From NCBI GenBank assembly GCA_022760475.1, contig JALEFZ010000066.1, forward strand, positions 1 to 64,000: 64,000 bases of DNA. The letters run 5' to 3'. The translations under genes were made by a program, and so were the position numbers. The notes under the pieces are model-generated. The model searched no databases, was not told where the DNA came from, and worked only from the letters and a program-made list of their open reading frames with translations. Source of the DNA: Bacteroidia bacterium. Lineage in GTDB: Bacteria > Bacteroidota > Bacteroidia > J057. Shown in pieces: positions 32,625 to 63,957 of this stretch (its first letter is position 1; every line of letters begins with the position of its first letter).

Positions 32625-33590
32625 ATGAAGAAAATTCCAAGATTTTTATTCCTGATATTGTTCCTTTTCTCTACTCAGCTTCTCCTGGTAAGCTGTGATC
32701 CAGCCACATTGGCTAGACTTATTGGCATTTCAATCACTGATGGACCTATTGATGACCCCCTTTATGGAGATGTATTTATCACTGTGGATGGGATCAAAAT
32801 TGATGGTAAAAAACTTGACGGTTTTCAGCGCCAAACAATCAATATATCTGAACTCCAAAATGGAATTTCGACCTCTTTGTTTAAGGACGAAGTGGCAGTT
32901 GGGACGTATGAAAGCATCAGCTTGATCCTTGATTTTGATAAGGATGATTCTGGAGAAGTTCCAGGCTGTTATGCGAATACAGTTTATGGCAGGAAAATCA
33001 CCCTGGCCAATTATCGTACTGGCAAACAAGAGGTTACCATAGAGGGAGAATTTGTAGTCGATGAAGATGAAGATTCTGAATTCGTCATTGATTTTGACCT
33101 GCGAAAAACCATCCGGGGAGATCGTCCTGGAGATGAGGGGGAGCTAAGTTTTATAGACGTAGGAGAAATGGGCAAGGCCCTAAGGATGGCTGACAGCAAG
33201 GAAACAGGAAACTTGCAATTAGAATTGACCCTTGAAGCCAGTTTACCAGAAGCAGCGTTGGGATACCTCATTTATGTTTACCCAAAAGGTGGATTTGACC
33301 GCAATGCAGAATTTCTTGACAGTGATGGTAATGGAATCAATTTTGAGAATGCCGTCGTCAGTGGAAAGATTGTTTTGGAATCTACGGGAGGTATTGGAAC
33401 TGCTACCCTGCCTTTCATCCTAGAAGGTGATTATGAACTTGTGATCGAGGCTTATGAAAGATATGAGTTTTCTCAGACCCGACTGGGCTACCTGGCCATT
33501 CAGGGACAGGAAAGTGTAGTTACTCCCTTTAGCATTAGCAAGGGAAAAAAGACCGAGCTTGGTCTGAATGGGACGAGTATCATAGAATAA
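32625..33590 (+). CDS. DUF4382 lipoprotein
   Basis: From the ATG at 32625 (MKKIPRFLFLILFLF...) the product has 321 residues and a lipoprotein signal with Cys near residue 24 (LLLVSC). Residues ~35-175 match DUF4382: ISITDGPIDDPLYGDVFITVDGI and the later AVGTYESISLILDFD. The C-terminal ~130 residues form another beta-rich domain (YLIYVYPKGGFDRNAEF, LEGDYELVIEAYERYEF). Function unknown; typical outer-membrane lipoprotein of Bacteroidota. A terminator follows, so it is separate from the sigma-factor operon. Confidence 0.85.
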   Translation: MKKIPRFLFLILFLFSTQLLLVSCDPATLARLIGISITDGPIDDPLYGDVFITVDGIKIDGKKLDGFQRQTINISELQNGISTSLFKDEVAVGTYESISLILDFDKDDSGEVPGCYANTVYGRKITLANYRTGKQEVTIEGEFVVDEDEDSEFVIDFDLRKTIRGDRPGDEGELSFIDVGEMGKALRMADSKETGNLQLELTLEASLPEAALGYLIYVYPKGGFDRNAEFLDSDGNGINFENAVVSGKIVLESTGGIGTATLPFILEGDYELVIEAYERYEFSQTRLGYLAIQGQESVVTPFSISKGKKTELGLNGTSIIE

Positions 33591-59750: not shown

Positions 59751-59781
59751 AAACACCTCCTTTTGGGAGGTGTTTTTTTTT
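59751..59781 (+). terminator. Terminator of ahcY
   Basis: Stem AAACACCTCC (59751-59760) with GGAGGTGTTT (59766-59775), loop TTTTG, then a T run to 59781. Confidence 0.92.
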
Positions 59782-60002: not shown

Positions 60003-60019
60003 CCAGTATTTGATACTGG
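60003..60019. promoter_or_regulatory. Perfect inverted repeat upstream of the AraC-type regulator
   Basis: CCAGTATTTGATACTGG: 7-bp arms around TTG, 36 bp before the ATG at 60055. It may be an operator or an mRNA hairpin. Confidence 0.4.
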
Positions 60020-60054: not shown

Positions 60055-61680
60055 ATGAATGATAATAAGTCAATACTTTCTGTAAGACAACATTCTTCTC
60101 CTAGAAAGGGGGGCTTGAATCAAAATTTCCAAACTGACCAAGAGGTCATTGCGACCATTATTGATCAGCTTGATACAGGAGATAGCGAACTATTGTCCCA
60201 GGACATATTTGTTGAAATAGTATCTTCCCTTTCTTCCATTGTAAACCTCAATAAGGCAATTATGCTGAATAGGCTTGGCAAGGCCAACCAGAATATTGCC
60301 AGGGCATCGAAATTGTCTTCAGAAAATGGAGAAAGGTTGATACGAATGTTCAGGGAATTTTCAGAGTTATTAAAAACTGACAAATCGTCTCCAAAAGCTG
60401 AGTTTAAGTCAATCAAAATAAATCAACTTCTTGATGAGGTTTATAACAAGCATTTAGATACACTGAAGGATAAGGAAATCGCCTTGCAGCTTTTCTTGAA
60501 TTTACCCAATGAATACGAAGTTGAGAGTGATCCCAAAATTTTACATACCATATTTCAGAAGTTAATCAATGAGCTTTGCCAGGCCTTTCCGAATGGCGGA
60601 AAACTGGAAATCAAACTAGAGCCAAGTAGCAATATTCAAAACTACATCCTCAGCATGACCTTTGAAGGATCAGAGCTTTCCAGGAAGAAGACTCATAGCA
60701 AGAATGAGAAGGGCATTCTGAGTGAATTGGTTATTTTCCCTTTGCTTTTGAAAAAATACACCCAATTGTTGAAGGGGAAATCCAGAATCTACGTTGAAGC
60801 AGAAAATAGAATCCGTTTTAACATGCTTCTACCTCATTCGCCTATCTCTTCTGAATCCCCAAAGCCAGTAGCGGTACATCACAAAGCATTTACAGATCAA
60901 GAGATTCAGAAAAAAAATAAACCTAGAGGAATCCTGGTTGCCAATGATGAATACATACTGGAACCACTTTACAATCATCTTAAGGAAAGCTATAAAAATT
61001 TCTTTGCCCAGAACACGCAAAAGGCATTCGAAATCATAGAGAGATATCCAGCCGAGATTTCATTTATCATTTGTGCCGGGCAAGTACCGTTCGAAAATGA
61101 ATTGGAATTCATAAAGAGAGTAAAGGCAAATCCATCAACCAAAAACCTGCCGCTATTGGTCGTATCTGATGAGGTGAGGTGTTCCTTGAAGATGAAGGCC
61201 ATGCAATTCAAACTTTCCGCTTATATCACTGAACCATTTTGTTTCAAAGAGCTGTCTCAGATTCTTCAGAAAGAATTGGACTTGCACTCAGATTTCAATT
61301 CGGCACAATATTACTGCAATTCTGCCAAGTCTAAATGCCTAAGTACACCTGCTGATCTTGAGTGGTTGGAAGAATTGGAGGAGGAAATTTTAAAAGAAAT
61401 GGGCAACAGACATTTTAACCTTTCAGAGTTGGCTTACAGAATGGCAGTCAGTGAACGTCAATTATTCAGAAAGGTAAAGGAACTGACCCAGAAAACACCG
61501 AATAAATACCTCAGGGATTTGAGAATATATGCAGCCAAACGCCTACTTGAATCTTATACTTACGGAACTGTGGCAGAGATCTCATATGCGGTAGGGTTTC
61601 AAGACCCACACTATTTCTCAAAAATTTATTATGGTACATTCAAGAAATGGCCTTCGGAATACCTGACACGATTGTATTGA
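60055..61680 (+). CDS. AraC-type regulator fused to degenerate kinase and receiver domains
   Basis: 541 residues, cytosolic, no signal or membrane segment. Residues ~50-135 resemble a HisKA helical pair without a phosphoacceptor His. Residues ~135-275 look like an HATPase core (ILHTIFQKLINELCQAFPNGGKL) but without the DxGxG ATP box. Residues ~300-420 resemble a receiver: VANDEYILEPLYNHL first, then the phospho-Asp position reads SFIICAGQVPFEN (no Asp) and the KP motif is TEPF. Residues ~430-541 form an AraC HTH (LSELAYRMAVSERQLFRKVKEL and VAEISYAVGFQDPHYFSKIY). It is like the cytosolic half of a hybrid two-component regulator that has lost all phosphotransfer chemistry. Likely a protein- or ligand-switched transcription factor. 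A terminator separates it from the downstream cNMP/TolC genes. Confidence 0.8.
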   Translation: MNDNKSILSVRQHSSPRKGGLNQNFQTDQEVIATIIDQLDTGDSELLSQDIFVEIVSSLSSIVNLNKAIMLNRLGKANQNIARASKLSSENGERLIRMFREFSELLKTDKSSPKAEFKSIKINQLLDEVYNKHLDTLKDKEIALQLFLNLPNEYEVESDPKILHTIFQKLINELCQAFPNGGKLEIKLEPSSNIQNYILSMTFEGSELSRKKTHSKNEKGILSELVIFPLLLKKYTQLLKGKSRIYVEAENRIRFNMLLPHSPISSESPKPVAVHHKAFTDQEIQKKNKPRGILVANDEYILEPLYNHLKESYKNFFAQNTQKAFEIIERYPAEISFIICAGQVPFENELEFIKRVKANPSTKNLPLLVVSDEVRCSLKMKAMQFKLSAYITEPFCFKELSQILQKELDLHSDFNSAQYYCNSAKSKCLSTPADLEWLEELEEEILKEMGNRHFNLSELAYRMAVSERQLFRKVKELTQKTPNKYLRDLRIYAAKRLLESYTYGTVAEISYAVGFQDPHYFSKIYYGTFKKWPSEYLTRLY

Positions 61681-61700
61681 TCAGTGGTCTAAAGAATTAA

Positions 61701-61731
61701 AAACCAGCTTTTAAAAAAGCTGGTTTTTTTA
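61701..61731 (+). terminator. Terminator of the AraC-type regulator gene
   Basis: AAACCAGCTT (61701-61710) with AAGCTGGTTT (61717-61726), loop TTAAAA, followed by T7 (61724-61730). Confidence 0.9.
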
Positions 61732-61841
61732 TTTCCAAGCCCATGCGCGTCAACTTTATCAGCATTTAAGGCAGGATTGTAGGGTGAGGTATTTGGATAT
61801 TGGGTAATAATCATTTCACAAGGAAGACAAGCATATCCCAT

Positions 61842-62366
61842 ATGAAACGAGTACTATATGTATTGGGGCAACTCAATGACCTGGACATCGAATGGATGAT
61901 TCAGAACGGCGCCAAAGAAGAACTTCAGGCCGGCAAATGGCTAATTTCCCAGGGCAATGAAGTTGACAATCTTTACATTGTCCTCTCGGGTGAATTCTCG
62001 GTTTTGAATAAAAATCGACAAGATGTGGAAATAGCAACTGTAGGTCCGGGAGAGATCCTCGGGGAAATGTCATTTATAGATGCTCGTCCTCCTGAAGCTT
62101 CGGTCATGGCCAAAGAAAACTCCATTGTCTATTATATACCGAGATACAAAGTCAAAAAGAAAATGGAACTGGACCCAGGTTTTGCTTCCCGATTCTATTT
62201 AGCTATTTCCATGTTTTTGTCAAGTCGTCTTAGAACTACCATGAATACCCTGGGTTTCAGCATTTCTTCGGATGACGCAGACGAAATTGACATGAATGTA
62301 CTCAATCAGGTCGGACAAGCAGGCGCTCGATTTGGCCAGATCCTTTACAAATTTTCAGAAGTATAA
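61842..62366 (+). CDS. Stand-alone cyclic-nucleotide-binding domain protein
   Basis: From the ATG at 61842 (MKRVLYVLGQLNDLDIEWMI) the product has 174 residues. A single cNMP-binding domain (~15-135): AGKWLISQGNEVDNLYIVLSG, GPGEILGEMSFIDARPPEASV, the latter being the phosphate cassette with Glu-Met-Ser and Arg. A C-terminal helical tail follows; no HTH is present, so it is not a CRP-type regulator. It lies 19 bp before a TolC-family gene and is probably co-transcribed. Confidence 0.85.
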   Translation: MKRVLYVLGQLNDLDIEWMIQNGAKEELQAGKWLISQGNEVDNLYIVLSGEFSVLNKNRQDVEIATVGPGEILGEMSFIDARPPEASVMAKENSIVYYIPRYKVKKKMELDPGFASRFYLAISMFLSSRLRTTMNTLGFSISSDDADEIDMNVLNQVGQAGARFGQILYKFSEV

Positions 62367-62385: not shown

Positions 62386-63957
62386 ATGTCATTAAGAGCC
62401 AGTGGAATTCTTCTCTTACTATTGTTGGTCTCGCTATCTGGCGTAGGTCAGGTGGGGCAGGAAGACATTCGATCCGACCTCAGAAGTTTGGTTGAATTGA
62501 TGATCCAGCGAAGCCCGATTCTTGTCAGGCAGGGATATGTGGTACAGCAATCCAAAGCTGAGCGAAGGCTTGCGAAGGGTTTATTTGACTTCAACCTGAC
62601 TTCAGGAGTCAGCTTGATTCAGGCCAACGACAACCTCTTCCAAAAGGATCCCCGTTTCGAATCCATTGGTGGAGACCTCCTAACCCATACATCAAACTTC
62701 AGGCTAGGCCTTGACCGAACTTTTCGTACCGGCCTTCAAAGTAGCCTGTCATTTAATTATTCCAGAGTAGCAAGTAACCTTCCGTTAGATCAATTCGGAG
62801 AAACAACGCCACCTTTTCTGGCAGACAACATCAGTAGCCTGAGTGTCTCATTGAGCCAACCCTTACTTAGAGGCAGGGGAAAGAAAAACACTGCTGCAAC
62901 GGAGCGATTCACCATAAAAATGGTAGAAAGCGAGTCTTATGGTCAAGACTTTGTGCTAGCAAGTGAAGTTTACAGGTTGGTGGTCACTTACTGGAGTTAT
63001 CTTGCCAGTTATCAAAGGCTCCAGATATTCAAACAAAACGAAGAAAGGATCAAAAGGGTATTTACCATCACTCAAGAACTGGTAAATGCGGAAAAACGAT
63101 CACAAAATACCTTGACACAGATCAAAGCGGACCTTGCCAACCAGCAGCGTCAGACAGTTTTGGCTGAACAAGCCTACTTCCAGTCAAAATTGAGTTTGGG
63201 AAGAATAATTGGTCTAAGTGAGAAGGAAAGTAAGATGATTGTAGATCCTGTACAGGACTTTCCTGATATCATTGATACGGATTACTCCAATGAACTGCCC
63301 TTGGAAAAGTACCTGGATTTAGCGAAAAATCTTCGAACCGATATCAAGTCATTGCGTTCTGCGCGAGAGGCACTTGAACAGAATCTGGTCAGATCCATGA
63401 ACGACCTTAAACCCCAAGTTGACCTGATAGGCAGAGCAAGTATTGGTGGTATAGACCAGAGACTGGGTTCACCCAGAATAATCAGCCCATTTTCCCAAAC
63501 CCAAGGAAGATCAAGCCAATTTGAAGTGGGTTTGAATTTTAGTTTTCCTGTAAACAACAACGTGGCTCAAGCCAGTTACCTGAGTAGTAAAACAGCAGTG
63601 GATGATCAGAATGTCAATATTGACAACCAAATCAGGAACTTGAATATTAACATTGACATTGCCCTGAATAACCTGCACTTCAATGCTACAAAGCTAGAGC
63701 GGGCCAGGGAAAACCTAAATTATAGTCAGCAAGTCTATGATGCCGAACAGATTAAGTTCAAAAACGGCTTGACCACCCTGCTCAACCTAATCCTTTTTCA
63801 AGATAGGTTGACCATTGCACAATTGGACTACCTGAACGCTAAACAGGAATTTACCAGTTCTATTGCTGACCTCAGGAATGAGACAGGAACCCTTGTTCCC
63901 TTTGGAGAGCAAGGCCAGTACACCATTGATTCAGATTACTTTTTTAAGGTTCCCTAA
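62386..63957 (+). CDS. TolC-family outer-membrane channel
   Basis: 523 residues. Signal peptide (SGILLLLLLVSLSGVGQ), then two TolC halves with long helices (VLASEVYRLVVTYWSYLASYQRL, TITQELVNAEKRSQNTLTQIKADLANQQ; QQVYDAEQIKFKNGLTTLLNLI) and strands with SVSLSQPLLRGRG and FEVGLNFSFPVNN. It forms the outer-membrane duct of a type I or RND-type exporter. The inner-membrane and adaptor genes are not seen and probably lie beyond the window; an ATG at 63996 or 63985 may begin the next gene. Confidence 0.93.
   Translation: MSLRASGILLLLLLVSLSGVGQVGQEDIRSDLRSLVELMIQRSPILVRQGYVVQQSKAERRLAKGLFDFNLTSGVSLIQANDNLFQKDPRFESIGGDLLTHTSNFRLGLDRTFRTGLQSSLSFNYSRVASNLPLDQFGETTPPFLADNISSLSVSLSQPLLRGRGKKNTAATERFTIKMVESESYGQDFVLASEVYRLVVTYWSYLASYQRLQIFKQNEERIKRVFTITQELVNAEKRSQNTLTQIKADLANQQRQTVLAEQAYFQSKLSLGRIIGLSEKESKMIVDPVQDFPDIIDTDYSNELPLEKYLDLAKNLRTDIKSLRSAREALEQNLVRSMNDLKPQVDLIGRASIGGIDQRLGSPRIISPFSQTQGRSSQFEVGLNFSFPVNNNVAQASYLSSKTAVDDQNVNIDNQIRNLNINIDIALNNLHFNATKLERARENLNYSQQVYDAEQIKFKNGLTTLLNLILFQDRLTIAQLDYLNAKQEFTSSIADLRNETGTLVPFGEQGQYTIDSDYFFKVP

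Follow-up and report, generated by a model that had tools for sequence, protein, structure and literature searches.

Gene context of the regulator

The DNA analysed, a 64,000-nucleotide stretch referred to here as the window, carries towards its end a regulator gene that precedes an NHLP-type RiPP export and maturation cluster, most of which lies past the window end. The following features were assigned in this region:

59751-59775, + strand: intrinsic terminator-like hairpin, 5′ of the regulator and 3′ of ahcY
60003-60019, no strand: 7-3-7 palindrome, real, its exact copy unique
60055-61680, + strand: regulator gene, 541 aa, with pseudo-DHp, pseudo-CA, pseudo-receiver and AraC-type DNA-binding domain (DBD); from the intact frame, Pfam/NCBIfam, alignment and fold model
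60184-60390, + strand: DHp-like hairpin, aa 44-112, without His; from profile, alignment and model
60391-60840, + strand: aa 113-262, a degenerate HATPase (CA) domain lacking N-box and DxGxG; from NCBIfam, alignment and Foldseek
60925-61284, + strand: pseudo-receiver, aa 291-410; from a sub-threshold Pfam match and alignment
61348-61677, + strand: AraC-type DBD, aa 432-541; from Pfam, alignment and tree
61699-61728, + strand: intrinsic terminator-like hairpin 3′ of the regulator
61749-61783, + strand: putative operator, direct half-sites GTCAACTTTATCAG and GGCAGGATTGTAGG with a 21-bp period, about 93 bp 5′ of the cNMP ATG
61842-62366, + strand: first gene of the export operon, encoding an NHLP exporter-type cyclic-nucleotide-binding (cNMP) protein
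62386-63957, + strand: TolC-type outer-membrane factor of the exporter

Given the hairpin at 61699-61728, the regulator is probably transcribed alone. The cNMP gene is listed with a TTG start at 61800, yet the ATG at 61842 (MKRVLYVLGQL) agrees with the start in relatives; its product matches TIGR03896 strongly, yet under the curated cut-off. The order 3′ of the regulator is cNMP, TolC, HlyD (TIGR03794), C39-peptidase ABC1 (TIGR03796), ABC2 (TIGR03797) and DUF7005, with the part of the export operon from HlyD onwards past the window end. There follow a radical SAM/SPASM protein, a TPR protein, an NHLP precursor (TIGR03793), an S41 peptidase and a second NHLP precursor, and the cluster also encodes a 1691-aa protein with propeller, HisKA, HATPase, receiver and class III cyclase modules. 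TIGR03793, 03794, 03796 and 03797 are all above cut-off, which makes this an NHLP RiPP cluster.

Domain architecture of the regulator

The sequence-only reading of this locus had described the layout of the cytosolic half of a hybrid two-component system (HTCS), and domain calls, NCBIfam kinase models and fold matches support it: the order HisKA-HATPase-receiver-AraC DBD, as in a functional HTCS, is found on one chain. The DNA-binding domain, which had been called intact, gave a clear HTH_18 match at aa 459-538 (E 4.6e-17; 62.5 bits vs. a Pfam cut-off of 33.6), with two HTH motifs above the curated cut-off, as in AraC/XylS-type DBDs. For the remaining segments the proposed HMM searches bore out the layout in part. 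NCBIfam kinase models match aa 87-206 (PnpS, 3.7e-7; WalK, 4.9e-7) and Response_reg remained sub-threshold (24.7 bits with the receiver scanned alone; Pfam gathering score 30.2), but Pfam HisKA and HATPase_c gave no match in the regulator protein. HisKA and HATPase were recognised via the orthologues, the NCBIfam models and the fold, not via Pfam on the regulator itself; one orthologue (G001, see below) passes the HATPase_c cut-off with 30.6 bits.

An AlphaFold model built on a 12-sequence alignment (mean pLDDT 68.5, pTM 0.38) shows DHp, CA, (beta-alpha)5 and HTH elements; because of the low pTM its domain placement is unreliable. In Foldseek, the PDB entries that match the model best are cores of histidine kinases, including DivL and RetS (E 1e-11 to 1e-9). 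As the model alignment included ordinary kinases, we regard the AlphaFold and Foldseek results as supporting and not fully independent evidence.

Loss of the phosphotransfer residues

Residue columns were set in an alignment of the regulator and 31 ordinary HTCS that had been selected as having H-box and receiver motif intact. The phospho-His column is occupied by V53; as aa 40-118 contain no His at all, the phospho-His is lost and not shifted. The N-box Asn pair is replaced by K169/E173 and DxGxG by F203-x-G205-x-E207. In the receiver, the acidic pair reads A296/N297, the phospho-Asp column A341, and the Thr and Lys columns S371 and E393, respectively. We looked for displaced catalytic residues and found none: there is no Asp near the end of beta3, D298 is offset from the acidic pair by one residue, and K397 stands four residues after the Lys column, within alpha5. 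The earlier claims that phospho-His, DxGxG, receiver Asp and receiver Lys are gone, and that they are lost rather than moved by a few positions, are thus upheld for the window protein. Phospho-His, N-box, DxGxG and the receiver Asp and Lys of a functional HTCS are all missing, and the receiver domain, a receiver fold without its active-site residues, is a pseudo-receiver. The absence of a membrane sensor was likewise confirmed, as the window regulator has no hydrophobic segment that could anchor a periplasmic sensor. The frame, open over 541 codons, and the well conserved DBD speak against a pseudogene.

In HTCS, a receiver contact termed S/CHIP-DK holds the DBDs inactive, and its substitution gives phosphorylation-independent DNA binding (Gao, Wu and Stock 2024, PMC11253607). 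This inhibitory contact is absent from the regulator: the receiver loop reads KNLP in the window protein and ARLP and KKIP in its two long orthologues, with S/C and H gone. The D and K of the motif are kept in the DBD as D434 and K473, 39 residues apart, as are D1344 and K1383 in BT4124.

Long orthologues and short forms

Two long orthologues were found in Bacteroidota, 35% (G001; L011, J057 MAG) and 29% (G003; L012) identical to the regulator. Aligned with it, they lack the same catalytic essentials: at the His column G001 has A and G003 has Q, at the receiver Asp column R and Q, and at the Lys column I and L, respectively. The statement that all sites are dead holds for the window protein but not for every member, as G001 retains D-x-G-x-G; it also has an N-terminal hydrophobic membrane hairpin. 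In G001 the gene order is identical to the end of its contig. In G003 the same operon is located about 15 kb from the regulator, and beside it are NHLP precursors, a LanM-like DUF4135 protein and a hybrid kinase-cyclase.

A three-row profile, built from the same long-form sequences that it scores, gives the long orthologues 916-936 bits, and the next proteins in the family, the order and the samples taken from class and phylum 235 bits or less; no further long orthologue was present among the class and phylum samples. Of two scans of genome contigs, the first gave no match and the second, with the three-row alignment, one close orthologue, which was G001 again. No orthologue was found in viral contigs, and plasmid matches were distant HTCS-like proteins.

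Conservation among the three long forms is uneven. The DBDs are 56-70% identical and the DHp-like regions 36-39%, rising to 57-65% within a 23-residue motif, N-x-AIM-xx-RLG-x-AN-x-NI-xx-AS, common to all three. Identity is 19-31% in CA (19-22% for the window protein vs. the two orthologues) and 21-39% in the receiver, and the linkers are unalignable. The persistence of pseudo-CA and pseudo-receiver at full length in all three, with the receiver conserved to this degree, argues for some retained role.

A regulator homologue accompanies each of the 11 complete cNMP-TolC-HlyD-ABC1-ABC2-DUF7005 clusters found in the Bacteroidota samples, and none of four partial ones (G019, G138, G250 and G926, the last on an 8.7-kb contig and poorly scorable). 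ABC2 is above cut-off in four genomes of the order, three with the regulator and G019 with ABC2 alone. Outside the order (class sample and two further samples) it occurs in G084, G284, G902, five congeners of G284, G138, G250 and G926. In the DNA examined, the NHLM ABC2 of the four partial clusters is not accompanied by a cNMP gene, by DUF7005 or by a regulator. Counting scorable clusters only, 11/11 vs. 0/3 has an exact probability of 1 in 364, to be read with the related genomes not being independent and 'complete cluster' having been defined after looking.

Eight of the 11 homologues (G084, G284, G902 and the five G284 congeners) are short, 210-230 aa, and consist of a DHp-like hairpin and an AraC DBD without HATPase or receiver; they all belong to one family, and six share a genus. 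Their genes lie directly 5′ of the precursor or cNMP gene, and their DBDs are 38-51% identical to those of the long forms in the matched stretch. In a tree the DBDs of the three long and eight short forms make up one clade (support 98/91), nested among a wider HTCS group. As the comparison set was assembled from proteins resembling the window protein and the underlying alignment has 117 columns, the tree does not fix the exact sister group.

The phospho-His is absent in 11/11 homologues, and receiver Asp and Lys in all three that have a receiver. The DHp-like hairpin is kept throughout (11/11), with the H-box Pro in ten; in the short forms the His column is K, R or Q. Against a profile of 44 HTCS DHp domains, and compared with 1000 shuffles, the long orthologues score 21.0 (G001) and 19.0 bits (G003), with no shuffle as high, and the window DHp weakly, 10.6 bits, with one shuffle as good. 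Two short forms reach 16.9 and 12.1 bits (0/1000 shuffles as high) and a third 8.3 bits (5/1000). A profile of the eight short forms matches the DHp profile with an hhalign E of 9e-5 and 59% probability. From these comparisons the short-form hairpin is likely homologous to DHp, though short of proof.

A direct repeat as candidate operator

The palindrome at 60003-60019 had been put forward as the operator, a proposal that found no support. Sites with two or fewer mismatches number 33 vs. 24 for the reversed control, which is little excess, and as the palindrome is absent 5′ of the relatives we do not take it as an operator. The shared site is instead a direct repeat before neighbouring transcription units. 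The pattern G[TG]CA-N17-G[AGT]CA was first suggested by the DNA 5′ of the short-form clusters, and an intergenic scan of all clusters placed it 5′ of cNMP, precursor, maturase and LanM-like genes, while some matches had no gene behind them. The half-site reads GGCAnnATnnTMAG in the three genomes with a long form, again with a 21-bp period.

A matrix trained solely on five G001 and G003 sites was used to scan both strands of the window contig stretch (70,144 positions). It ranked 61749, 76815 and 74498, which lie before the cNMP operon, precursor 2 and precursor 1, as first, second and fifth, and for these three tested sites not one of 500 matrices with permuted columns equalled this result. 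Site 71624, before the radical SAM gene, was third among + strand positions; it was not among the sites chosen in advance but surfaced in the scan. With a matrix from short forms only, 61749 ranked third, 76815 tenth and 74498 864th. A nine-site matrix finds two unused candidates in G003 (L113:2437 and 12429), one before the cNMP operon and one after DUF7005. Genome-wide, 15 matches were counted in 6.86 Mb, three of them in the 15-kb cluster stretch; as this pattern was refined on window sites, the matrix test and not the genome-wide count is the fair test. Repeats of 21-bp period, the tandem arrangement looked for with an AraC/XylS-type protein, are in this way seen in the sequence 5′ of the presumed target genes. 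The DNA 5′ of the regulator's own gene and of the hybrid kinase-cyclase gene yielded no such repeat.

One exact match to the repeat pattern lies in the window outside the cluster (33171-33195); with a matrix score of 11.2 vs. 34.3 for 61749, it probably arose by chance. Near the far cluster end there is a second, ordinary AraC-type gene (L041:13820-14629; C25:83819-84628). The repeats could be bound by another regulator, and the product of this gene could also read them.

Proposed mode of action

We consider it probable that the regulator is a phosphorylation-independent, cluster-specific activator of the AraC type that derives from an HTCS, is dimerised by its DHp and binds the direct repeats. 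By this reading, descent from an HTCS would have led to a transcription factor specific to the NHLP-type RiPP cluster. The DHp remnant would most likely hold the protein as a dimer, placing two AraC domains side by side on the tandem repeat, an arrangement that, from what is known of the family, would need no phosphate. Tethering of AraC DBDs to a dimeric kinase could itself promote activation, as argued in PMC11253607. With repeats before the exporter operon, maturase and precursor genes, the regulator most likely activates these. Pseudo-CA and pseudo-receiver would be tolerated remnants or secondary interaction surfaces and not the switch. The regulator would receive no phospho-input; there may be no input at all, with control by protein amount, or a partner may dock on the DHp. 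That relatives do without HATPase and receiver lends weight to phosphorylation-free action, which we infer here as the sequence-only reading had. The cyclase and cNMP-binding protein may act on export rather than on transcription.

A more specific history is possible, though we hold it only tentatively: an HTCS stripped stepwise would have given a lineage of RiPP-cluster regulators in which the DHp hairpin is now the signal input, perhaps docking the cNMP-binding protein, the cyclase or the long folded NHLP leader peptide. The order of loss would have been phosphotransfer residues first, HATPase and receiver later.

The DHp is the usual docking surface for receivers. The kinase-dead core might bind the phosphorylated receiver of the cluster's own propeller-kinase-receiver-cyclase, so that a phosphate signal reaches the promoter by protein contact. 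That hybrid kinase keeps its phosphotransfer motifs (SHELRTPL, NLIGNA, DTGIG, DVMMP, KPF) and its versions in the window genome and in G003, the two long-form clusters for which this DNA was available, share 42% identity; DivL offers a precedent (PMC4211667). We nevertheless judge this unlikely: in the eight clusters with a short form we saw no protein with a receiver, and the cyclases there have GAF/PAS-like or TPR-like modules instead.

It is less probable still that pseudo-CA or pseudo-receiver binds a small molecule that controls DNA binding, such as a cyclic nucleotide made by the class III cyclase. Such a cyclase is encoded in every cluster with downstream DNA to inspect, a cNMP-binding protein in 11/11, and ligand-binding pseudo-receivers are known, c-di-GMP exerting control via that of ShkA (PMC12632262). 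Against this, both domains are absent from eight of 11 members, and the cNMP-binding protein, a separate product of the export operon, is the more natural nucleotide target. That kinase and receiver are drifting, roleless remnants on a working DBD, leaving a plain one-component AraC factor, would fit the low CA identity, the unalignable linkers and short forms that work without either domain, but is very unlikely given the conserved 23-residue DHp motif, the open frame and a hairpin retained in every homologue.

Relation to known systems

The regulator shares with HTCS such as BT4124 and BT4236 the order kinase core-receiver-AraC DBD, a DBD that nests among theirs, and the D and K of S/CHIP-DK. 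It differs in the loss of the phosphotransfer residues and S/CH, in having no periplasmic sensor, and in being tied to a RiPP cluster and not to polysaccharide use; most of its relatives, moreover, have neither HATPase nor receiver. BT4236, in which Gln replaces the phospho-His, is among the HTCS whose REC-DBD contacts depart from the consensus and which have been described as probably phosphorylation-independent (PMC11253607). Pseudo-receivers and aspartate-less receivers (ChxR, HP1043, ShkA, CikA; PMC12632262, PMC4395418) have the same receiver fold without phospho-Asp and are expected to act free of phosphorylation, but that of the regulator is joined to an equally dead kinase core and an AraC DBD, and most of the family does without it. 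Histidine pseudokinases such as DivL (PMC4211667) have the histidine-kinase fold without phospho-His; DivL, with Tyr at the phospho site, signals to another kinase, whereas the regulator carries its own DBD. In view of these precedents (BT4236, pseudo-receivers, DivL), the suggestion of a switch of a type not described before was too strong. Judged by its residues, the regulator is an HTCS variant and no longer a functional HTCS. The literature searched yielded no report of the combination of dead kinase, receiver and DBD, of a tie to NHLP clusters, of the operator candidate or of reduced DHp-AraC forms.

The cluster has the full set of exporter and precursor families, above cut-offs, of the NHLP/NHLM RiPP export clusters of Haft et al. 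2010 (PMC2887384), to which we add a dedicated regulator and a shared candidate operator; the word 'regulator' has no match in the text of that paper. In laboratory culture, RiPP clusters of the proteusin type reportedly often stay silent (PMC10734526), and a literature search covering few subscription journals found no study of how they are regulated in Bacteroidota. With a named regulator and a defined candidate operator to work from, activation of such clusters can be tested directly. A route from a two-component system to a one-component regulator is suggested by the gradation of forms, which leads from a working HTCS via a dead one to a bare DHp-AraC protein, and the family bears on how pseudo-receivers work.

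Further observations on the cluster

The gene of the hybrid kinase-cyclase lies beyond the window (L041:7378-12450; contig C25:77377-82449). Both metal-binding Asp of its cyclase are present, but Gln takes the place of the usual purine-selecting Lys. The presence in one cluster of a cNMP-binding protein and of a hybrid kinase whose output is a cyclase suggests second-messenger control of peptide export.

In G138 (L126) and G250 (L129, L130), an NHLM-type HlyD-ABC1-ABC2 set adjoins the operon for ribosomal proteins, and neither a precursor nor a cNMP gene nor a regulator was seen near it; this exporter may transport something else. DUF7005 (PF22541) or a homologue (L040:18454-19617 and relatives) was not seen in the partial clusters examined, but is found 3′ of ABC2 in 11/11 complete clusters, making it a candidate core component of the NHLP-type cluster.
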